Source of the DNA: Beijerinckiaceae bacterium
GTDB taxonomy: Bacteria > Pseudomonadota > Alphaproteobacteria > Rhizobiales > Beijerinckiaceae
Direction of reading: 5' to 3'
Length of the DNA: 64,000 nt
NCBI GenBank assembly: GCA_947452455.1
Contig: CANGBX010000006.1
Coordinates: 1 to 64,000 of the forward strand
Part shown: positions 18,047 to 54,184 of the stretch, piece after piece
Layout of the letters: every line of letters starts with the position of its first letter
Position numbering within the stretch: the first letter of the stretch is position 1
Translations under genes and position numbers: made by a program
Notes under the pieces: model-generated
What the model was told of the DNA's origin: nothing
Database searches by the model: none
Seen by the model: the letters and a program-made list of their open reading frames with translations, nothing else

Positions 18047-19057
18047 ATGAAGACCGCGACAAAGCTCATTCTCACGGCCGCCACTTTGCTTATGGGCAGC
18101 CTGCAGGCGCATGCCCAGACGGCTGTTAAATTTGCCCTCGACTGGAAGTTCGAAGGTCCTTCCGCTCCCTATTTCACGGCTCTGGAAAAGGGCTATTACA
18201 AGGCCGAGGGTCTTGATGTGACCATCGACACGGGCCCCGGCTCGGTCCAGGGCATTGCGCGCGTGGCGGCAGGCACTTATCCGCTTGGTTTCTTCGACAT
18301 CAATTCGCTGGTGCGCTTCCGCGACCAGAACCCGGACCAGAAAGTGGTCGCGGTGATGATGGTCTATGATCGCCCGCCCTTCTCGATCGTCAGCCTGAAG
18401 AAGGCCGGCATCAAGACGCCGAAGGATCTCGAAGGCAAGATTTTGGGAGCGCCAGCCCCCGATGGCGCTTTCGCGCAATGGAAGGCATTCGTGAAGGCGA
18501 ATGGTTTTGATGGCGACAAGGTCAAGATCGAAAATGTCGGCTTCCCAGTGCGTGAACCTATGTTGGCGCAAGGCAAGGTCGATGCGATTACGGGCTTCTC
18601 CTTCTCCTCTTATTTCAACCTGCTGCAGAATGGCATCAAGCCGGATGATGTCTCGGTCATGCTGATGTCTGACTTCGGTCTGACCATGTATGGCAATGCC
18701 ATTATGGTGAACCCGGAATTTGCCAAAGCAAATCCGAAAGTTGTGGCAGGCTTTGTGAAGGCAACTGTCAAGGGCCTCATCGATACGGCGCGTAATCCTG
18801 ACGAAGCGATCAAATATGTTTTGAAATATAACCCGACCGCTGAACCCGCAATTGAGCTGGAGCGTCTGAAGATGTCTCTGCGCGACAATATGGTCACGCC
18901 TGCTGTGAAGGCGGCTGGTGTTGGCGGCGTTGATATGGCGCGTTTGGCGAAATCCATCGACCAGATTGCTGATACATACGAGTTCAAAAATCGTCCGACA
19001 GCGGCTGATATTTTCACCAGCGAATTTTTGCCGCCAGCTGCGGAGCGCAAGCTCTGA
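18047..19057 (+). CDS. ABC transporter substrate-binding protein (NMT1/SsuA-like)
   Basis: VKFALDWKFEGPSAPYFTALEKGYYKAEGLDVTIDTGPGS. Confidence 0.9.
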   Translation: MKTATKLILTAATLLMGSLQAHAQTAVKFALDWKFEGPSAPYFTALEKGYYKAEGLDVTIDTGPGSVQGIARVAAGTYPLGFFDINSLVRFRDQNPDQKVVAVMMVYDRPPFSIVSLKKAGIKTPKDLEGKILGAPAPDGAFAQWKAFVKANGFDGDKVKIENVGFPVREPMLAQGKVDAITGFSFSSYFNLLQNGIKPDDVSVMLMSDFGLTMYGNAIMVNPEFAKANPKVVAGFVKATVKGLIDTARNPDEAIKYVLKYNPTAEPAIELERLKMSLRDNMVTPAVKAAGVGGVDMARLAKSIDQIADTYEFKNRPTAADIFTSEFLPPAAERKL

Positions 19058-19836
19058 TGATCAAACTTGATCAGGTTTCGCTTGCTTATGCGGGACGCAC
19101 TGGCCCGGTGCTGGCGCTCGATGGGACATCCTTGAGCGTTGGCACCGGCGAGTTTGCGGCGGTTGTTGGACCATCGGGTTGCGGCAAGTCGACATTGATG
19201 AAGCTCGTCACAGGGCTCATCAAGCCGACCAGCGGAACCGTGTCTGTTGATGGCGCGCAAGTGTCAGGGCCGGTCAAGATTGCGGGCATGGCTTTCCAGA
19301 ATGCCAATCTCCTGCCTTGGCGCACGGTGACAGACAATATTCTTTTGCCGCTTGAGATTGTGGAGCCCTATCGCGGGCAGTTCCGCGCGAAGAAAGACGA
19401 ATATCGCGCACGTGTTGAAAACCTGCTTTCGATTGTTGGTTTGCAGGGGTTTGGTGATCGCTTTCCTTGGGAATTGTCGGGCGGGATGCAGCAGCGCGCA
19501 TCTTTGTGCCGCTCCCTTATTCATGAACCGAAACTCCTCATGCTTGACGAGCCCTTTGCGGCGCTTGACGCTTTCACGCGCGAGGAATTGTGGTGTGTCT
19601 TGCGCGATGTATGGCAGCGTTTGAATTTCACGGTCATTCTGGTCACGCATGATTTGCGCGAAGCTGTGTTTCTGGCAGACACAATCCATGTGATGAGTGC
19701 TCGTCCGGGCCGTATCATCGATACGCGCAAAGTTGATTTTGCCAGGCCCAGAGAGCTGGATGTTTGTTACGAGCCAGCCTTTACGGATCTTGTGCACGTC
19801 CTGCGCAATAAAATTGCCGAGGTGCGCAAAGCATGA
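19057..19836 (+). CDS. ABC transporter ATP-binding protein (nitrate/sulfonate type)
   Basis: GPSGCGKST Walker A, LSGGMQQRASL signature, LLMLDEPFAALD Walker B. Confidence 0.95.
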   Translation: MIKLDQVSLAYAGRTGPVLALDGTSLSVGTGEFAAVVGPSGCGKSTLMKLVTGLIKPTSGTVSVDGAQVSGPVKIAGMAFQNANLLPWRTVTDNILLPLEIVEPYRGQFRAKKDEYRARVENLLSIVGLQGFGDRFPWELSGGMQQRASLCRSLIHEPKLLMLDEPFAALDAFTREELWCVLRDVWQRLNFTVILVTHDLREAVFLADTIHVMSARPGRIIDTRKVDFARPRELDVCYEPAFTDLVHVLRNKIAEVRKA

Positions 19837-20603
19837 GCAAGACATTTGAAAAACTAGCGCCCTGGCTTTTTGTCGTCGTTCTCTTCGCTGTGTGGGAGGC
19901 CGCCTGTCGTTTGCTGGCTGTGCCGACCGTTATCCTTCCTGCACCCAGCGTTATTTTCGGCGCGTTTCAGCGCTTCTGGGGTCCGATTGTCTCTAATTCC
20001 TTCGTTACGCTTTGGACGACGATGGCGGGCTTTGGATTGTCGGTGGCTTTTGGCCTCTTCCTTGGCCTTGTGGTGGGCTGGTCGCGTGCAATTTACCGCG
20101 GCTTTTATCCGGTCATGATCGGGTTCAATTCAATTCCAAAAGTCGCCGTGGTGCCAATCCTCGTCATGTGGTTCGGGATCGGCGAAGTGCCCGCCATTCT
20201 GACGGCCTTTCTGATTTCTTTCTTTCCGATCGTCGTCAATGTCGCAACGGGCCTTGCAACGATTGAACCTGAAATGGAAGACGTGCTGCGCGCACTTGGT
20301 GCCTCAAAGCTCGATGTGATGCGCAAGGTCGGTATTCCGCGTTCAATGCCTTATTTCTTTGGCTCGTTGAAAGTGGCCATCACGCTGGCCTTTGTCGGCA
20401 CAGTGGTCTCGGAAACAGTGGCCGCGAATTCGGGTATTGGCTTTTTGATGTCGCAAGCCGGCGCGAATTTCCAAATGCCGCTGGTCTTCGCCGGCCTCAT
20501 CGCTTTGGCCTTTGAAGGCATTATCATGTATGCCGCCACCGCTTGGCTTGAACAGCGGATGACGGGATGGGCGTTCCGGTCGCAGGGAAGTGCTGCGAAC
20601 TGA
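19833..20603 (+). CDS. ABC transporter permease
   Basis: Hydrophobic, EMEDVLRALGASKLDVMRKVGIPRSMPYFFGSLKVA EAA-loop. Confidence 0.92.
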   Translation: MSKTFEKLAPWLFVVVLFAVWEAACRLLAVPTVILPAPSVIFGAFQRFWGPIVSNSFVTLWTTMAGFGLSVAFGLFLGLVVGWSRAIYRGFYPVMIGFNSIPKVAVVPILVMWFGIGEVPAILTAFLISFFPIVVNVATGLATIEPEMEDVLRALGASKLDVMRKVGIPRSMPYFFGSLKVAITLAFVGTVVSETVAANSGIGFLMSQAGANFQMPLVFAGLIALAFEGIIMYAATAWLEQRMTGWAFRSQGSAAN

Positions 20604-20660
20604 GCTAGTTGAGAGTTCCACCCGCTTTGCGGGGTGGACGTCCTTCTTGAAAGCTTAAGA

Positions 20661-20699
20661 AAAATGCCCCGTGAGTGAAAACTCCGGGGCGTTTTTTTT
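20661..20699. terminator. Repeated bulged hairpin terminator, copy 2 (bidirectional, between convergent genes)
   Basis: AAAATGCCCCGTGAGTGAAAACTCCGGGGCGTTTTTTTT. Confidence 0.85.
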
Positions 20700-20725
20700 C
20701 ATTGCTCGCCCGTTTTTTGCCGTGA

Positions 20726-22219
20726 TCAACCGGGCGAAAACATCGGAAAGCTCACGCCCAGAGACCAGGCTAAAATCAAGCCCAACGCAAGTCCTGCTGC
20801 AACGGGCGACATTGTGCGTCGTGCGACCCAGCCGCCCATCGTTCCGAAAACAACAAAGAACAAAACAATGACCGGAATAATGATCAATAAAAAGAAGAGA
20901 CGCTCGAAGTCCAATAGAACAGCGACCCCCAATGATGCGAGAAAAACGCCGCGGCCTAACAACACACGCCAATAGGGCGCGCGTCCACCATCTGCTGCAA
21001 GTGCATCGGCGACCATATAGGGCACGGATCCGATAGCGATCATGACAATCACTTGCGCGCGCGCAGCATTGGGCATGAAGGACGCGACATAGCGATCCAG
21101 TGCAAAACCGAAAATCAATATGCCATAGGCGGTGAGGGCTGCTGCTGATGCCAATGCAATCGGTTTCAACGTCACGCCGTTCCATGTCAGGACGCCGAGC
21201 GAAATAAGTCCAAATACAAACAGATGGGCTGCCAGATAATCGGCAACCAAGATCGGCAGGAAATGCGTATCGACAAGTGTCAGTAATAGGGGCGTGAGCG
21301 CAGCTGGCAGGAGAGTTACGAGAAGAAATGTCCGCAGGGGCAATGTTGTTGCGGGGCAATCCATGCGGGGCAATAGACCGGCCAATGGCCAAGCCAGAAG
21401 AAGAATTCCCGCCAGCAAGATGACAATCCATCCTCCTGTGGCAGCGATTGGAGTCTTGCTGTTGCGTCCAAATATGTCATCAAGCCAATCGCGTGCATCG
21501 CGCATGGCTGGTGATGAATAGAGCACGCTGACATGTTCGACATGGGGCGCCACAAAAGTGCGTCGACGGCTTGATGTCGATGGGTCGCTGATAGTGTCGC
21601 CTTCCTTTGCTGCGGGATCGGTGAGTTGTGCTTTCTGCAAAGCATTTGCGCGCAGGAAAGATTCCCATTCACCGGAAATCATCAAAAGATTGCGTGGCTC
21701 TGATTTCGTCACCGCTTCAGAGAACATTGAGATGGTGACGGTGGCTGACACGCGCGGATCTTCGACCGCTTCGCGCACGATAATGTCGGATGCCATGGAA
21801 TGGCCGAGCAGCGCGACGCGCCCATCAACCGATGGCAAGGCCAAAGCCGCATCAACCACGCGTCGCACTTCGCGTTTGAGGATTTGTGTTGTGCCGCTCA
21901 CCTGCGTGATGTCCCCGGTCATCGGTGTCGGGTTGCGGCCGTGTCCCTCAAAGTCAAATGAGACAGCAACATATCCAGCTTGCGCCAGCGTCAGCGCATA
22001 GGCTTCCATGAGCTGGCGAGATCCGGCAAAGCCATGCGCGATAACAACAGCCGGAGCCTTGCCCGCATTCTTGAGCTGATAAATTGTGGCGGGAGTTGAG
22101 CCCACAGAAAGCGCTGTGATCGTGAGGCCGGATCTTGCATGTTCAAGATTCCAGATGCCAAGTGCGCAAAATAATATGCCTGCAATGGCTGCCAGAAGAC
22201 GCGAGTGAAACGATCGCAC
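20726..22219 (-). CDS. Alpha/beta hydrolase fused to C-terminal polytopic membrane region
   Basis: AVVIAHGFAGSRQLME, LLGHSMASDIIV nucleophile; many TM segments; GTG start at 22219 chosen 3' of the preceding stop, preceded by GAGAGGC. Confidence 0.75.
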   Translation of the reverse strand: MRSFHSRLLAAIAGILFCALGIWNLEHARSGLTITALSVGSTPATIYQLKNAGKAPAVVIAHGFAGSRQLMEAYALTLAQAGYVAVSFDFEGHGRNPTPMTGDITQVSGTTQILKREVRRVVDAALALPSVDGRVALLGHSMASDIIVREAVEDPRVSATVTISMFSEAVTKSEPRNLLMISGEWESFLRANALQKAQLTDPAAKEGDTISDPSTSSRRRTFVAPHVEHVSVLYSSPAMRDARDWLDDIFGRNSKTPIAATGGWIVILLAGILLLAWPLAGLLPRMDCPATTLPLRTFLLVTLLPAALTPLLLTLVDTHFLPILVADYLAAHLFVFGLISLGVLTWNGVTLKPIALASAAALTAYGILIFGFALDRYVASFMPNAARAQVIVMIAIGSVPYMVADALAADGGRAPYWRVLLGRGVFLASLGVAVLLDFERLFFLLIIIPVIVLFFVVFGTMGGWVARRTMSPVAAGLALGLILAWSLGVSFPMFSPG

Positions 22220-22248
22220 AATGCCTCTCGAATAAAAAATGGATGGCT

Positions 22249-23172
22249 TTACGTCGCTGCAAAAATACGAACGGCGACAGCGCTTGCCATCATGCCGAGC
22301 ACATAAAGCGGCACACCGAAACCGCTGTACCAATAGGCATCCTTGATCGGGTCTCGCACCAATCGCTTCATCATCAGCAATTGAGCCATCAGCAAGAGGG
22401 TTACAATGCCCGCTTCAATATATTGCTGCCACGACGCCAAGAGTCCGATGACGGCCATCTGCGGCAAAGCCATAATGGCGCTGGCAACAAGCGCGGCGCG
22501 CTCTGGGCCAAGTAGAACAGGGAGCGAGTTGATCCCCATTTCGCTGTCGCCTTTGATCGCCTTGAAGTCGTTCAGCGTCATAATGCCATGTGCGCCTGCG
22601 CCATAGAGAATGGCCAAGATCAGCACTTGTGTGGGCGGAAGAGAGCCGCCGAGCATGGCGGCAGCACCGGTGATCCAGGACAGGCTTTCATAAGAAAAAC
22701 CGCATGCTGCATTTCCCAGCCAGCCATTGCGCTTGAGGCGAAAGGGCGGTGCGCTATAGGCCCAAGCGAGTATGAGTCCGGCAATGGTTGCCACCATCAC
22801 CCATGGGCCGAGCGTGGCCGCGACAAGCAAGGACAGTACGGTCCAGATGCCGGCAATATAGAGCCCCCATTTGCCGGGGATGCGACCAGACGGAATGGGC
22901 CGATCGGGTTCATTGATCGCATCGACATGCCGGTCGTGCCAATCATTGATCGCTTGGCTCATGGCGCAAACCAGCGGGCCGGCAAGGATCATACCTGCCA
23001 GAATGATGTACCAATTTTGCAAGAGAGGTACGCCGGATGACACGACACCGCAGGCAAAAGCCCACATGGGCGGAAACCATGTGATCGGCTTCAGCAATTC
23101 AAGCACCGCTGATGGCTTGGGGTAGGCTGATGCGGGCTGTTCTGTCACCAGATCTGTCGGGTCAATACTCAA
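22249..23172 (-). CDS. bchG: (Bacterio)chlorophyll synthase, UbiA prenyltransferase family
   Basis: ELLKPITWFPPMWAFACGVVSSG; AGPLVCAMSQAINDWHDRHVDAINEPDRPIPSGRIPGKWGLYIA; YGAGAHGIMTLNDFKAIKGD: close to remembered BchG/ChlG sequence. Confidence 0.92.
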   Translation of the reverse strand: MSIDPTDLVTEQPASAYPKPSAVLELLKPITWFPPMWAFACGVVSSGVPLLQNWYIILAGMILAGPLVCAMSQAINDWHDRHVDAINEPDRPIPSGRIPGKWGLYIAGIWTVLSLLVAATLGPWVMVATIAGLILAWAYSAPPFRLKRNGWLGNAACGFSYESLSWITGAAAMLGGSLPPTQVLILAILYGAGAHGIMTLNDFKAIKGDSEMGINSLPVLLGPERAALVASAIMALPQMAVIGLLASWQQYIEAGIVTLLLMAQLLMMKRLVRDPIKDAYWYSGFGVPLYVLGMMASAVAVRIFAAT

Positions 23173-24885: not shown

Positions 24886-25215
24886 GGGAATATCCTTGTA
24901 GACATAGATAAAGAGAGACCTCGTGAGAGGTCCGTTGTGAATCGAAGAAGGAGTGTGGGGTCAGCAGAGCGCGTGAGCGCAGGGCTTAATCGCAAGCCAA
25001 ATAATCGATGGCCATACCTTTAGCGGTTCACGAGTAAATAGCAAGCAAACACTTGCTGGGAGGCATTTCGGCCCTTTTGAGTGACCTCGATTGGCTTTTA
25101 TGGCTTTCGGCTCCACGATTTGTGAAGGCAGGGTGTGCCCAAGCTTGGCCGCTGGCCGTTGCTTGTCGCTCTCTCATCGCAGAAAATCAGGGCAATAGAT
25201 CATGGGAGCGAAGCA

Positions 25216-26196
25216 ATGATCCTCACTCGTCGCAATGCGTTACAGGCTACCTTTGCCGCAGGCGCTCTGGCCGCCCTGGCGCCGAATGCTCTGGCGCAGG
25301 CCTATCCCGCCCGCCCTGTGCGCGTCATCATTCCTCTCGCGCCGGCAGGGGCATCCGATGTGGCCTTACGTCTTGTGCTCGATGAAATGGCGCGCGATCT
25401 TGGCCAGTCTTTCGTCGTCGAAAACCAGCCGGGCGCATCGGGCTTGGTGGGCATGCGCTCAGGTGCGCGCGCTGTTCCCGACGGCTATACGATCTTGGGC
25501 GTGAATGACAGCATCCTCACCATGCTGCCCGCGATGAAAGATGATGCGGGTTATGATCCGCTGGTTGATTTTGTGCCTGTCACGCAGCTCGTCAAAATTA
25601 ATTTTGCACTGATCGCGCATCCGACTTTCGCGCCGAGCAATGTGAAAGAGCTGGTCGCTCTGGCGAAAGAAAAACCGGGTGTGGTTGATTATGGATCGGG
25701 TGGTCCGGGCAGCCCGCAGCATGTGGCCATGGAATTGCTGATGCATGCGACTGGTATCAAGCTCAATCATGTGCCCTATCGCGGCGTTGCGCAGGCGTTC
25801 AACGATGTTGTCGGCGGGCATGTTCCGCTGATGATCACAGGCTTGCCTGCGCCAAATGAGCTGATCAACTCCGGAAAGCTGAAACTGCTCGGCATCACAT
25901 CGGCAGCGCGTTCCGCGGTCTTCCCGAACCAGGCAACAATCTCAGAGCAGGGCGTGACAGGTTACGACTTTACGACTTATGCGGGCTTGGTCGCGCCAGC
26001 AAAGACGCCCGCCCCAATTGTCGATCAGCTGAATAAATTGGCCTTGAAAGCCATGCAGGCACCAAATGTGCAAAAGAGGCTTACGGATATGGGCTTTGAT
26101 GTGATTGCCAATAGCTCGGCTGATTTTGCTGCGGTCATCAAAGACGGTCTCGCAAAATATTCAAATCTGTCGAAAGTGGCCAATATCCGCCTTTAA
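25216..26196 (+). CDS. TctC/Bug family substrate-binding protein (canonical subfamily)
   Basis: AYPARPVRVIIPLAPAGASDVALRLVLDEMARDLGQSFVVENQPGASG; start at MILTRRNAL. Confidence 0.88.
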   Translation: MILTRRNALQATFAAGALAALAPNALAQAYPARPVRVIIPLAPAGASDVALRLVLDEMARDLGQSFVVENQPGASGLVGMRSGARAVPDGYTILGVNDSILTMLPAMKDDAGYDPLVDFVPVTQLVKINFALIAHPTFAPSNVKELVALAKEKPGVVDYGSGGPGSPQHVAMELLMHATGIKLNHVPYRGVAQAFNDVVGGHVPLMITGLPAPNELINSGKLKLLGITSAARSAVFPNQATISEQGVTGYDFTTYAGLVAPAKTPAPIVDQLNKLALKAMQAPNVQKRLTDMGFDVIANSSADFAAVIKDGLAKYSNLSKVANIRL

Positions 26197-30024: not shown

Positions 30025-30207
30025 GCGCGTCGCCCTTTATGCTTCGACAATTGTGCTCAGAGTGCCTGACTTCATTCAAGGCTACAGATTGAAAAGACAC
30101 GCGGCCTCATCCAATTTATGTTTTCTGCAGTGCAGCAAGGCCCTTTGCGGAAAGACTTTTTTGCGTTTAAGGGTGATCGCAAAGAAGACCGCAGAGGAGA
30201 GGAACGC

Positions 30208-30513
30208 ATGAAAGGCTTGATCGGCGGTTTGTGCCTGGTTGTTCTGCTGGGCGGCACGGCGCAGGCGCAGTCCATGGTGCCGGCCCATAATGGCTCGTGT
30301 CCGTCGGGCACCTCTTATGCGGGCTCGGGCTATTGCCGGGCGACCAATGGGGATGCCTATGTCCCCGCACAGAATGGGTCTTGCCCGTCGGGTGCCTCTT
30401 ATGCCGGGAGCAATTACTGCCGCTCATCGAGCGCGCGGGGCTATGTGCCGGCCCATAATGGCTCCTGCCCTTCGGGATCCTCTTACGCGGGGTCGGGCTA
30501 TTGCCGGCTCTAA
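30208..30513 (+). CDS. Small exported protein with three 28-aa tandem repeats (CPSGxSYAGSxYC)
   Basis: Signal peptide MKGLIGGLCLVVLLGGTAQA followed by 3 x VPAxNGSCPSGxSYAGSxYCR. Confidence 0.75.
   Translation: MKGLIGGLCLVVLLGGTAQAQSMVPAHNGSCPSGTSYAGSGYCRATNGDAYVPAQNGSCPSGASYAGSNYCRSSSARGYVPAHNGSCPSGSSYAGSGYCRL
30277..30510 (+). repeat. In-frame tandem repeat, period 84 bp (about 2.8 copies)
   Basis: GTGCCGGCCCATAATGGCTC.TG.CC.TCGGG..CCTCTTA.GC repeated at about 30277, 30361, 30445. Confidence 0.85.
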
Positions 30514-33058: not shown

Positions 33059-33922
33059 ATGGCTGGCGGCCAGAAGCCGATGATCATCGACGTTCATTGC
33101 CATGTGGTCTCACCCGACCGCGAGACCTATCCCTTGGCACCCATTGGCGGAAAACAATCCGATTGGTCGTCGGAGCGCCCCACTACGCCCCAACAGCTGA
33201 TTGCGGCCATGGATGAGGCTGGCGTCGAAAAGGCGGCCGTTGTGCAAGCCTCCACCGCTTACGGCCATAATTCCTCTTATCTGGCCGACAGCATCGTCAA
33301 ATTCCCCAAGCGCTTTACAGGTGTCTTCTCGCTCGATCCGCTTGATCCAGACGCTTTGGCGCAGATGGATCATTGGGTGTCGAGGGGCATGACCGGCATG
33401 CGCGTCTTCACCACGGGCTCGACCATGCCCGGCCAGCAAACATGGCTAGATGATGAGCGCGCTTATCCAGTTTGGGAAAAAGCCGGCGCTTTGAAACTGC
33501 CGATTGCCATGCAGATGACGGCAGAAGGCATTCCGTTGTTGCTGAAAATTGTGAAGGCTTATCCGCAGACGAATTTCCTGCTCGATCATCTGGCGCGTCC
33601 CGTCATCCATGATGGCGCGCCTTATGCCAAGGCTCAAAGCCTGTGGGATATTGCAGGCTATAAGAACATCTATCTGAAATTGACAAGCCGCACGGTGGAG
33701 CATTGCCAGCAAGGCCAATCCACACCGGAGGCTTTTATGGCCAAGGTTCTCTCAACCTTTGGCGCCAAGCGCGTGCTCTGGGGGTCCAACTTTCCCGCGC
33801 ATGACGACACGCTGAAAAATATCGTCGATGAAACTTTGCATGTGCTCGCATCAGTCTCTGATGCGGACCGTGCGCAAATTCTCTCAGGCACGGCACTGGA
33901 TCTCTATCCGAGCCTCAAGTGA
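33059..33922 (+). CDS. Amidohydrolase family protein (TIM-barrel, PDC-lactonase-like)
   Basis: IIDVHCHVVSPD; FLLDHLARPVIHDG; RVLWGSNFPAHDD. Confidence 0.85.
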   Translation: MAGGQKPMIIDVHCHVVSPDRETYPLAPIGGKQSDWSSERPTTPQQLIAAMDEAGVEKAAVVQASTAYGHNSSYLADSIVKFPKRFTGVFSLDPLDPDALAQMDHWVSRGMTGMRVFTTGSTMPGQQTWLDDERAYPVWEKAGALKLPIAMQMTAEGIPLLLKIVKAYPQTNFLLDHLARPVIHDGAPYAKAQSLWDIAGYKNIYLKLTSRTVEHCQQGQSTPEAFMAKVLSTFGAKRVLWGSNFPAHDDTLKNIVDETLHVLASVSDADRAQILSGTALDLYPSLK

Positions 33923-33947
33923 TTTTCATATCAGAAGGGCATTTCTC

Positions 33948-34961
33948 ATGATGAAACTGCGTTCTCTTCTCTTGGCGGCTTGCGCCTTGGCATCTGCCCC
34001 GGTGCTCGCCCAAAGCCCGGAAGAATTTTTCAAAGGCAAGACGGTGAAAGTCATGGTCGGCCATCCCCCGGGTGGCTCTTATGATTTTTATGCGCGCCTC
34101 GCCGCTGACATGTTGCGTGTGCATCTGCCCCAAGCCGGTGCCGTGATTGTTGAGAATAAGCCCGGTGGCGGGGGCCTTGTGGCGACCAGCTATCTTTATT
34201 CGCAAGCCCCGCGCGATGGCACAGTGCTGGCGGTCTTGCCCGAGACCATTGGCAATACGCAGGTGATGGAGCCTGAAGTCGGCAAGTGGAAAGTCGAAGA
34301 AATGCGCTATATCGGCTCATTCTCTTCGGTGAACACAGCTTTCGTGCGCCGCAAGGATTCACCCTCCAAAACAACTGACGACATGAAGCGTCAGGAAACG
34401 ATTGTCGGTTGCACGGGCACGACCGCACAGTCCTATCAATATCCCGCGCTGCTCAAAGTGCTCGGTGGCTATAAGTTTAAAATGATCTGCGGCTATCCGG
34501 GCGCCAATGAATATTCGATTGCGCTGGAGCGTGGCGAGATTGATCTCGTTTCCTCGGCTTGGAATTCATGGCGCGTGACGCATAAGCGCCAGCTCGACAG
34601 TGGCGAATTGGTGGCCGTCATCCAGACCGGCCTCAAGCGCAATCGCGAATTGCAGAATGTGCCGCTCATGCAGGAATTGGTGGATGATCCGGTCGCCAAG
34701 CGCGTGATCGAATTTGCTTCCGCTGGCGCCATGATTGGTCGCGCTCTGCTTGCGCCTCCCGGAATTCCAGCAGACCGCATCGACTATTTGCGCGCCACAT
34801 TCGACAAAATGGTCGCCGATCCGGCGATGATTGAAATGGCAGCCAAGCGCGCTTTGGAGCTTGATCCCACACCGGGCAAAGTGGTGCAGGGCTATTCCGA
34901 TGCCATTGTGAAGACGCCAGCCGATGTGGTCGAAAAAGCCGCAGTGGCTTTCAAAGGATAA
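33948..34961 (+). CDS. TctC/Bug family substrate-binding protein
   Basis: GGSYDFYARLAADMLRVHLPQAGAVIVENKPGGGGLVATSYLY. Confidence 0.85.
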   Translation: MMKLRSLLLAACALASAPVLAQSPEEFFKGKTVKVMVGHPPGGSYDFYARLAADMLRVHLPQAGAVIVENKPGGGGLVATSYLYSQAPRDGTVLAVLPETIGNTQVMEPEVGKWKVEEMRYIGSFSSVNTAFVRRKDSPSKTTDDMKRQETIVGCTGTTAQSYQYPALLKVLGGYKFKMICGYPGANEYSIALERGEIDLVSSAWNSWRVTHKRQLDSGELVAVIQTGLKRNRELQNVPLMQELVDDPVAKRVIEFASAGAMIGRALLAPPGIPADRIDYLRATFDKMVADPAMIEMAAKRALELDPTPGKVVQGYSDAIVKTPADVVEKAAVAFKG

Positions 34962-48029: not shown

Positions 48030-48800
48030 TCAGCTTCGCTGACGCGCGGAATCATGCCATTTGCCGAGCAGCGCGCGGTTCACAAAGTCGAGAACAAGCC
48101 AGATCGCAATGCCCGCCACGGAAATGAGCGCAAGCGCCGCAAACATGCGCGGGATGTTGAGGCGATAGCCGGCCTCCACAATGCGATAGGCCAGCCCTGC
48201 GCCTTGGCCCGAGGCCCCCGCTGCAATCTCGGCGGCAATGGCACCAATCAGCGCCAGCCCGCCCGCAATGCGCAGGCCGCCCAGAAAATAGGGCAGCGCC
48301 GAGGGCAAGCGCAGCAGGCGCATTTGCTGCCAGCCACTCGCACCATAGAGATCAAAAAGGTCACGCAGATTGTGGTCGGTCGACGACAGGCCCAGCGCCG
48401 TATTCGACAGAATGGGGAAGAAGGCTACGAGAAAGGCACAAGCCAATACGGCGGTCTCTGCATCCAGATAGATGAGCAAGAGAGGCGCGATGGCAATGAT
48501 CGGCGTGACTTGCAAAATCACCGCAATGGGAAAGAAGCTGCGCTCGAGCCATGTCCATTGCGCGAAGAGAATGGCCAGAGCCACGCCAATGCCCGTCGCC
48601 AAAGCAAGAGCCAGCGCCGTAATGCGCAAGGTCACCCAAAGCGATGCGGAGAGCAACGTCCAATCCTCGCGCAACGTCGTGAGAATGAGCGAAGGTGCGG
48701 GCAGCACATAAGGCGGGATGGATTGCAAATGCACGAGGCTTTCCCAGCCGCCGAGCAAAACGAGAAAGACAAAGAGCGGGAGAAGGCGCGAGAAGCTCAT
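48030..48800 (-). CDS. ABC transporter permease
   Basis: Hydrophobic; LRDLFDLYGASGWQQMRLLRLPSALPYFLGGLRIA EAA-loop. Confidence 0.92.
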   Translation of the reverse strand: MSFSRLLPLFVFLVLLGGWESLVHLQSIPPYVLPAPSLILTTLREDWTLLSASLWVTLRITALALALATGIGVALAILFAQWTWLERSFFPIAVILQVTPIIAIAPLLLIYLDAETAVLACAFLVAFFPILSNTALGLSSTDHNLRDLFDLYGASGWQQMRLLRLPSALPYFLGGLRIAGGLALIGAIAAEIAAGASGQGAGLAYRIVEAGYRLNIPRMFAALALISVAGIAIWLVLDFVNRALLGKWHDSARQRS

Positions 48801-49540
48801 GCGCCCTCCATCGCCGCTTCAAGCGCGCGGGATGCTTTGGCGCAAGCCTCCAGATAGGGCGCGCTCAAGCGAAACGCTTCGGTGCGGGCAGCAGGCTCTG
48901 CAACTGAGATGGTTTCGACAATGCGGCCCGGTCGCGGCGCAAAGACGCAAATGCGGCTTGAGAGAAAAGCGCTTTCATAAACGGAATGGGTGACGAAGAT
49001 CACCGTCATGCCCAGTTCGGCTTGCAAGTTCAAAAGATCGCGGTTCAGCCTGTGCCGCGTGATTTCATCAAGCGCTGCAAAAGGCTCGTCCATCAGGAGT
49101 AGCTTGGGCTGCATGACCAAAGCGCGCGCAATAGAGGCACGCATCTTCATGCCGCCAGATAATTCGCGCGGCATGTGCTGTGCAAAATCTGCAAGCCCGA
49201 CGCGCGCAAGGGCTTCTTCAATCTTGGGCTGCGCCTGCGCATGTGAAACACCCTTCAAGCGCAGCGGCAGAAAGACATTGTCGAAGACATTGGCCCAAGG
49301 CATCAAAGTCGGGTCTTGGAACACAAACCCGATATCAGGCTTGCTGTCGCCCCATGTGAATTTTCCTTGGTCGGCACGCTCTAACCCCGCAATGATGCGC
49401 AAGGCGGTGGATTTGCCGCAGCCTGACGGGCCCAGAAGCGAAACAAATTCACCACGCGCAATATCGAGATCAAGGTGATCCAATGCGCGCGTGCCATTGG
49501 CAAAGGTCTTGCCGATGGTGCTGAGAGAAAGAAGCGTCAC
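48797..49540 (-). CDS. ABC transporter ATP-binding protein
   Basis: GPSGCGKST; LSGGMKMRASIARAL; LLLMDEPFAALD. Confidence 0.95.
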   Translation of the reverse strand: MTLLSLSTIGKTFANGTRALDHLDLDIARGEFVSLLGPSGCGKSTALRIIAGLERADQGKFTWGDSKPDIGFVFQDPTLMPWANVFDNVFLPLRLKGVSHAQAQPKIEEALARVGLADFAQHMPRELSGGMKMRASIARALVMQPKLLLMDEPFAALDEITRHRLNRDLLNLQAELGMTVIFVTHSVYESAFLSSRICVFAPRPGRIVETISVAEPAARTEAFRLSAPYLEACAKASRALEAAMEGA

Positions 49541-50523
49541 TTCGTCTCCAGTCCAACGCGCTTGTTGACGAATTGCAATGTATAAGCGCGGCGATAATCA
49601 ATGCCCGCTTTCACGACGCCTGACGTCACCATTTTATCGAAGAAGCTTTTCTGGCGCTCGTCCGTCATGGCGCCAATGCCAAGCTGTTTGCTGTCGCCGG
49701 AATCGACAATGCCATATTCCTTCATCTTGGCGATGGAATAAGCGATTTGCTCGGCGCTCATATCAGGATTGTCGCGACGAATGAGTGCATTGGCTTTGCT
49801 GTTATCGCCATCGAGATAATTCACCCAACCGATGATCGAGGCGTCGACGAAGCGTTGTACGAGATCAGGGTTTTTGGTGATCAGATCGGCGCGCGTTTCA
49901 ATCGTCGTCGAATAAGTATCGAAGCCATGATCAGCGAGAAGAAAAACATTGGGCTTGAAGCCGGCCTGTTTTTCAATCGCAAAAGGCTCGGCGGTCGCAT
50001 AGCCCTGTTGCGCCGATTGCTTATTGGCGATGAAGGGGCCCGCATTGAAATTATAAGGCCGCAAATCCGCATCGCGGAAACCATATTCCATTTTGAACCA
50101 CGGGAAGGACGCAGCGACAAAATCCTTACCGAGATAAATCGGCGCGCCGACGAGATCCTTGAACGTGTCGCGTCCTTGGCCCGGATGCGACATGAAAACC
50201 TGCGGGTCTTTCTGGAACATGGAAGCAACAACGACGGTCGGCACATTCTGCTCAACCGCGGCAAAGGCCTGAATCATATTGCCGCCCATAACGAATTCGA
50301 TGCGCCCTGTGGGCAACATGAGGCGCGTGTTGGATTGCGGGCCGCCTTGAACGATCTCGACCTCGAGCCCGTATTTGGCATAAGTGCCGTCAGCCACAGC
50401 CTGATAGAAGCCGCCATGTTCGGCCTGTGCCAGCCAATTCGTGCCGAAGCGAATTTTGTCGGCGGCTTCAGCGCTCAAAGCGCTAGCCAGTAAAAGCGCC
50501 GCCGCCCGCCAGATGACCTTCAT
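49537..50523 (-). CDS. ABC transporter substrate-binding protein (NMT1-like)
   Basis: IRFGTNWLAQAEHGGFYQAVADGTYAKYGLEVEIVQGG. Confidence 0.9.
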   Translation of the reverse strand: MKVIWRAAALLLASALSAEAADKIRFGTNWLAQAEHGGFYQAVADGTYAKYGLEVEIVQGGPQSNTRLMLPTGRIEFVMGGNMIQAFAAVEQNVPTVVVASMFQKDPQVFMSHPGQGRDTFKDLVGAPIYLGKDFVAASFPWFKMEYGFRDADLRPYNFNAGPFIANKQSAQQGYATAEPFAIEKQAGFKPNVFLLADHGFDTYSTTIETRADLITKNPDLVQRFVDASIIGWVNYLDGDNSKANALIRRDNPDMSAEQIAYSIAKMKEYGIVDSGDSKQLGIGAMTDERQKSFFDKMVTSGVVKAGIDYRRAYTLQFVNKRVGLETK

Positions 50524-53531: not shown

Positions 53532-53717
53532 GTGATGCGCAAAATTGCGCGACGCTCACGAGGTAAAGCCGTTTCAGCGGAGCTGCAAGCGGCCTTTCCG
53601 TCGCGTCGTTCTGTGGTTTTTGCAACACGGCGCTAACAATGTGCAAAGATTCCGGCGCGCAGGCTAAAAAAACTCTTGCGCCCCCCTGAATAGTCAGTAT
53701 TTTCCGCCTTGCCCAAA

Positions 53718-54184
53718 TCGCACGTGCCTGTGGTCGTGTGTCGGTTGGCGGGGATCCGGACAAGAGGCCGGTCACTCGTCAGTAAAAAACCGGCAGCCGG
53801 AGCGAACCGGCGAACCCCGCCAAACGGGGGACGCGACTTAAAGCAACGACGGACCGGGCTTTTTCGTCTCTGTTGACCCTCCAAAGGTCAGCGTACCGAA
53901 GAGGCTTGTCTTTCTTGCCGCACGTGCGGACGGGAGCTCATCCCATCCAATCGATGGCCACCAAACCCCTTGGACAGCGTCAAGCTGATCTGGGGTGAAC
54001 GTGTCCTACGGCGCAGCACCCGACCTATGTTGGTCGACTGAATGGTTCAGTCGGACGGCACAGGTCACGGATGATTGCCGTTTTTGCTTCCGCGTCTCCA
54101 AAGCGCGGTGTGAAGCGCTGTCATCCACGAAGTCAACTCGTATCGGCGCGCCAAAAGTTGCGCGCCCTTCGAAGGGATGCCGCG
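53718..54184 (+). ncRNA. Structured leader RNA upstream of ornithine decarboxylase (speF-type, alphaproteobacterial)
   Basis: About 450-nt intergenic region, GC-rich with several hairpins (CCGGACAAGAGGCCGG, CGACTGAATGGTTCAGTCG, GGCGCG...CGCGCC, CCCTTCGAAGGG) directly upstream of an ornithine decarboxylase; matches the known position of the speF motif. Confidence 0.75.

Follow-up and report, generated by a model that had tools for sequence, protein, structure and literature searches.

A candidate membrane serine esterase encoded beside bchG and linked to bacteriochlorophyll phototrophy in alphaproteobacteria

What might a membrane hydrolase do next to a bacteriochlorophyll synthase? The question is raised by the window analysed here, the first 64,000 nucleotides of contig CANGBX010000006.1 of a Beijerinckiaceae bacterium. 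In this stretch bchG (22249..23172), recognised by profile and open reading frame (ORF) and encoding a synthase of the UbiA family with 307 aa, is followed on the same minus strand by the gene for a membrane alpha/beta hydrolase of 497 aa (20726..22219), recognised by profile, homologues and an AlphaFold model. In our preferred reading, to which we assign a probability of about two in three, the two genes form a co-directional unit and the hydrolase is an undescribed, phototroph-linked membrane serine esterase with a substrate in the photosynthetic membrane.

The locus and its bacteriochlorophyll synthase

The gap between the two genes measures 29 bp (22220..22248, minus strand), in agreement with a preliminary description of this DNA, which had placed both ORFs on the minus strand at these positions and about 30 bp apart. 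A GAGAGG stretch resembling a ribosome-binding (Shine-Dalgarno) site lies in this gap, directly 5' of the GTG at 22219. The same GTG had been proposed as the start of the hydrolase for its good Shine-Dalgarno sequence, and it also matches the starts in homologues. For bchG the listed start is TTG, and a GTG nine codons inside is possible. A possible transcription terminator 3' of the hydrolase gene (GCCCCGGAG...CACGGGGCATTTTT; 20655..20700, minus strand) was seen by eye and is absent from the list of the consensus scan, and in the consensus promoter scan of the window matches were no more frequent than in shuffles. PADLOC returned no match, and a phage-defence role for the hydrolase was accordingly dropped.

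Elsewhere in the window, ar45 sRNA and speF leader RNA families are found at 53711-54033, directly upstream of an ORF at 54071, and a small exported-looking protein with three near-identical PAHNGSCPSGxSYAGSxYCR repeats is encoded at 30118-30513. Judged by eye from the ORF translations, there are also two ABC transporter sets (substrate-binding/ATPase/permease; 18047-20603 and 48030-50523) and several TctC-like binding proteins (e.g. 25135-26196 and 33828-34961).

The synthase, previously called BchG-like, is a genuine BchG by curated profile scores, reaching 414.6 bits against NF005742 (cut-off 313) and, over the full length, 345.6 bits against TIGR01476 (cut-off 212.3). It is the sole BchG above cut-off in a profile search of the whole genome (3.05 Mb, 95.6% complete). 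In the alignment the BchG motifs NDWHDRHVDAINEPDRPIPSGR and NDFKxxxGD are conserved, and the NDxxDRxxD motif as well as the phenylalanine of TWF are invariant across 62 BchGs including that of the window. We take this phenylalanine to correspond to F28, which is typical of BchG rather than ChlG. F28/I44 are the specificity residues of BchG versus ChlG (PMC9066304).

By gene content the host is phototrophic, since the end of contig 1 carries pufL and the start of contig 2 carries pufM, both inside a photosynthesis gene cluster that was recognised by homology and that has bch genes in L011/L012. The window bchG is located outside this cluster. Other phototrophs examined (L210, L211 and L208) have bchG between pucC and ppsR; in the host these two genes (L012 3708-5048 and 5186-6607) are separated by 138 bp, and no bchG is found between them (L012 5048-5186). 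Since bchG is missing at pucC-ppsR and the sole copy lies in the window, bchG has moved away from this site, and the window copy serves in its place. In the BchG tree the window protein belongs to a lineage distinct from the canonical BchGs. This shows that bchG is able to leave the photosynthesis gene cluster and that a distinct lineage can replace it.

Architecture and predicted topology of the hydrolase

Among Pfam families only PF12146 (Hydrolase_4) matches the hydrolase, in its N-terminal half and with 40.2 bits (cut-off 27), and no NCBIfam family matches at its cut-off. The AlphaFold model (pLDDT 89.7, pTM 0.89) comprises an N-terminal membrane helix (residues 2-29; 22133..22216), an alpha/beta hydrolase domain (residues 30-250; 21470..22132), which alignment and fold search also support, and a C-terminal membrane domain (residues 262-497; 20729..21436), whose eight predicted helices run to residue 490, all encoded on the minus strand. 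Both the GHSMAS sequence and the C-terminal polytopic membrane region noted in the preliminary description are borne out. Ser141 (in GHSM), Glu186 (in GxWE) and His229 (in EH) are conserved to at least 97% in 111 homologues, and alignment and model place nucleophile elbow, acid and histidine on the fold in the order of alpha/beta serine hydrolases.

The fold search relates the core to PlaF, cutinases and PETases. PlaF (6i8w) is the best match (E 1.8e-7), with 16% identity and over the generic core only, and the best sequence matches include monoacylglycerol and other lipases. The eight-helix domain, modelled alone with a pLDDT of 87.4, finds no match among the solved structures of the PDB (best E 0.63). 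Its conserved polar residues Asp327, Tyr328, His332, Asp375 and Arg387 would, according to the model, sit at helix ends on the side that carries the catalytic domain.

The loops on the side of the N-terminus are richer in Lys+Arg in 105 of the 111 homologues and poorer in 2 of them, a count that omits the flanks of the catalytic domain and becomes 72 versus 17 when these are included. By the positive-inside rule, the catalytic domain should thus face the periplasm, an orientation that we regard as predicted.

Distribution and gene neighbourhoods

Of 298 genomes from the order, 23 contain a full-length relative of the hydrolase. bchG is present in 60 of these 298, and all 23 hydrolase carriers are among the 60 (Fisher P = 1.8e-18, a value that ignores shared ancestry). 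An even draw across the class yielded nine carriers in 296 genomes, six of them with bchG, compared with 21 of 296 overall, and the only further carriers in a draw across the phylum were three alphaproteobacteria, all with bchG. When 47 genomes were chosen by hydrolase similarity alone, 44 contained pufLM and two of the other three contained bchG. In total, bchG or pufLM was found in about 75 of the 79 carriers checked and was not detected in four (G431, G537, G564 and G594). In G537 the hydrolase gene adjoins a BciA-like gene, so a photosynthesis cluster may have been lost or left unbinned there. Genome comparison shows the predicted hydrolase to be almost confined to alphaproteobacteria that have type-II photosynthesis, and we consider it very probable that the family is linked to bacteriochlorophyll phototrophy. 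With 37 of the 60 phototrophs sampled in the order doing without it, the hydrolase is dispensable for phototrophy.

Named carriers are Bradyrhizobium sp. BTAi1, ORS 375 and STM 3809, Rhodobacter sp. SW2, Roseinatronobacter thiooxidans, Rhodobaculum claviforme, Roseibium denhamense and Hoeflea. Distant relatives occur on a Nostoc plasmid and a Palleronia plasmid; the relative on the Nostoc carneum plasmid (cyanobacterial plasmids; L201 5941-7389) is a full-length protein of 482 aa with the same triad.

bchG lies immediately upstream of the hydrolase gene, always co-directionally, in about 10 of 102 distinct loci, that is, in the window and in about nine others. The absence of the pair from every other genome, named in the preliminary description as speaking against a functional pair, was thus not observed. 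Related pairs are found in metagenome-assembled genomes assigned to Beijerinckiaceae, Roseiarcus, Telmatospirillum and others, and in one further genus (L078 and L084) the order bchH-bchG-hydrolase lies within the photosynthesis cluster. In the BchG tree the paired BchGs and the BchG of G100 form one clade (support 100/98). The canonical BchGs stand outside this clade, and among them are those of phototrophs in the window's own family. In the hydrolase tree the hydrolases of such pairs fall into two well separated clades, so that either this BchG lineage was coupled to the hydrolase repeatedly or one hydrolase was swapped for another. Coupling is not obligate, since in G246 bchG follows bchH and the hydrolase gene is not adjacent. 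A chance pairing of bchG and hydrolase was rejected on the neighbourhood data together with the phylogenetic profile.

In about 90% of the carriers the hydrolase gene is not beside bchG. A photosynthesis gene lies within 5 kb of it in 12 of the 57 loci that extend for 5 kb or more to either side. The hydrolase gene is close to bchP-pucC-bchG in L208 and L099, to a ppsR-type gene in L086, to puh genes in L142 and to crt genes in L120 and L171. The gene for an NAD(P)H-binding protein adjoins it or is close by in L099, L101/L069, L100, L109, L111 and G537, and in L096 the order is bchG>hydrolase<NAD(P)H-binding gene. From its sequence motifs we take this neighbour to be BciA, the chlorophyllide 8-vinyl reductase; its Pfam matches (NAD_binding_10 and NmrA) are consistent with this assignment. 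A BciA-like gene also stands beside the gene for an alpha/beta hydrolase of 309 aa on a plasmid of the algae-associated Agrobacterium sp. RAC06 (L222 20001-22067), with no photosynthesis genes annotated within 20 kb of the two; this hydrolase is only a generic relative and was rejected as a member of the family. The recurrent neighbours in Rhodobacteraceae, acetolactate synthase among them, give no functional clue. PpsR-type TGTN12ACA sites precede 7 of 94 hydrolase genes where 1.9 are expected, an enrichment so weak and partly redundant that PpsR control was rejected; upstream of the window bchG there is no such site, only an N11 variant.

Substrate, competing explanations and known enzymes

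In our preferred reading the hydrolase probably acts as an esterase within or at the surface of the photosynthetic membrane. Its catalytic domain is predicted to sit at the periplasmic surface, and the membrane domain would act as a substrate gate, presenting a lipophilic ester of the outer leaflet to the catalytic domain. We infer a substrate that is part of the photosynthetic membrane. The likeliest one would be a bacteriochlorophyll (BChl) or bacteriopheophytin ester released in assembly or damage, in which case the enzyme would serve the quality control of pigments and not a tight recycling loop with BchG; a phospholipid is nearly as likely. Overall, we find a pigment ester and a lipid about equally plausible, and put a tetrapyrrole ester somewhat short of even odds. 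The most specific version, a membrane-embedded BChl/bacteriopheophytin esterase that cuts off pigment tails on the periplasmic side of alphaproteobacterial photosynthetic membranes and is coupled to a special BchG lineage, is rather doubtful; if true, it would give purple bacteria their first known enzyme dedicated to bacteriochlorophyll turnover. Against the preferred reading we count the phototrophs that lack the hydrolase, the four carriers without detectable phototrophy genes, the location away from any photosynthesis gene in most carriers, the weak enrichment of PpsR-type sites, the fact that the closest solved folds are those of phospholipase PlaF, cutinases and PETases, and the distant relatives on plasmids of Nostoc and Palleronia.

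The preliminary description had proposed as a hypothesis that the two genes are a bacterial pigment salvage pair, in which the hydrolase removes the phytyl tail of BChl and BchG re-attaches a tail to chlorophyllide. Much of this stands, namely a real BchG, a linked hydrolase, a conserved pair and a link to phototrophy, and salvage would account for bchG adjacency in two hydrolase lineages, for the near restriction to phototrophs and for the esterase triad. There is also precedent, as oxygenic phototrophs recycle chlorophyll via tail removal and ChlG (PMC9066304) and BChl a is a substrate of cyanobacterial chlorophyllases in vitro (PMC7802212). What does not stand is the specific loop of esterification and de-esterification. 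Only about 10% of the carriers have bchG adjacent, the hydrolase is absent altogether from 37 of the 60 phototrophs sampled in the order, and the enzyme has neither a lid of the PPH/CLD1 type nor the chlorophyllase GHSxG. BchG belongs to the UbiA family, whose prenyltransferases work on the cytoplasmic side of the membrane, whereas the active site of the hydrolase is predicted to be periplasmic, so a closed loop would need the hydrolase product to cross the membrane. The host genome encodes a single CTP_transf_1 protein, presumably CdsA; no VTE5-type phytol kinase is thus found in it, and tail recycling would need another route. These points against salvage lower its likelihood, leaving the recycling loop as the less likely version and, in our estimate, an improbable one. 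A search for the Mg-dechelatase (Staygreen) gave no match in the host genome, but as it gave none in the controls either, it is uninformative.

A membrane-lipid esterase is a tentative but serious alternative. Such an enzyme would trim or remodel outer-leaflet lipids of photosynthetic membranes, as PlaF does with phospholipids, and would thereby help to make or tune the intracytoplasmic membrane. The top fold match to PlaF, the predicted periplasmic catalytic domain and the lipases among the best sequence matches all speak for it, but the PlaF match covers a generic hydrolase core at low identity, and lipid cleavage by itself leaves the placement beside bchG and a BciA-like gene unexplained. 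Some other phototroph-specific ester, such as the tetrapyrrole C13(2) methyl ester or an acylated carotenoid, would fit the crt genes near the hydrolase in L086, L120 and L171 and the BciA-like neighbours; as the neighbours vary among loci, we hold this to be unlikely. Most improbable of all is an accidental gene order around a housekeeping hydrolase that is unrelated to phototrophy. The four carriers without detectable phototrophy genes and the variable gene location would agree with it, but all 23 carriers of the order sample and about 75 of 79 overall are phototrophic, and one BchG clade is paired with two hydrolase lineages. The earlier statement that the hydrolase could equally be unrelated is therefore unlikely to hold, given pair conservation and the link to phototrophy.

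Our search of open-literature text returned essentially nothing on enzymes by which purple and aerobic anoxygenic phototrophs degrade or turn over bacteriochlorophyll. With its association with phototrophy, its intact triad and its bchG and bciA-like neighbours, the family is a direct candidate for such turnover. Should the substrate be a lipid, the hydrolase would represent an overlooked component of the photosynthetic membrane whose membrane domain resembles no solved structure. Since Bradyrhizobium sp. BTAi1 is among the carriers, cultured strains are available for addressing the question.

Several known enzymes share part of this profile. Like chlorophyllases (plant CLH and cyanobacterial OaCLH/CyanoCLH), the hydrolase would be an alpha/beta serine esterase with a Ser-acid-His triad. 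Chlorophyllases carry GHSxG as GHSRG, GHSFG or GHSWG and use Asp as the acid, and OaCLH (325 aa) depends on a hydrophobic N-terminus for full activity (PMC7802212). The hydrolase differs in having GHSM followed by A, S or G (GHSMA in the window, hence no GHSxG), a conserved Glu and the eight-helix domain; of the chlorophyllase profiles, PF07224 gives no match at E 1 and PF12740 reaches 20.8 bits, below its cut-off of 28. Motif and profiles together rule out a chlorophyllase. PPH and CLD1 are alpha/beta hydrolases that remove phytol, CLD1 from chlorophyll and pheophytin. An extended helical lid separates strand beta6 from strand beta7 in PPH, and the same feature is predicted for CLD1 (PMC5853334). 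In the AlphaFold model of the hydrolase, by contrast, strands 157-163 and 178-183 are joined by a 14-residue loop, and the missing lid rules out this family. BchO (TIGR03056), encoded in the photosynthesis gene cluster, is likewise a phototrophy-linked alpha/beta hydrolase, but its model has 278 residues compared with the 497 aa here, and membership was rejected as TIGR03056 gives no match even at E 1.

In PlaF, the membrane phospholipase A of Pseudomonas aeruginosa, a membrane helix at the N-terminus precedes an alpha/beta hydrolase, and the catalytic domain is periplasmic. The hydrolase follows this plan with helix 2-29 and a domain predicted to be periplasmic (positive-inside in 105 of 111 homologues); unlike PlaF, to which it is 16% identical, it adds a polytopic C-terminal domain. 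PGAP1/Bst1, the GPI inositol-deacylase, is eukaryotic and much longer, and the hydrolase would share its overall layout: a membrane helix, an outward-facing alpha/beta hydrolase and a polytopic domain, which in PGAP1/Bst1 presents a lipid ester.
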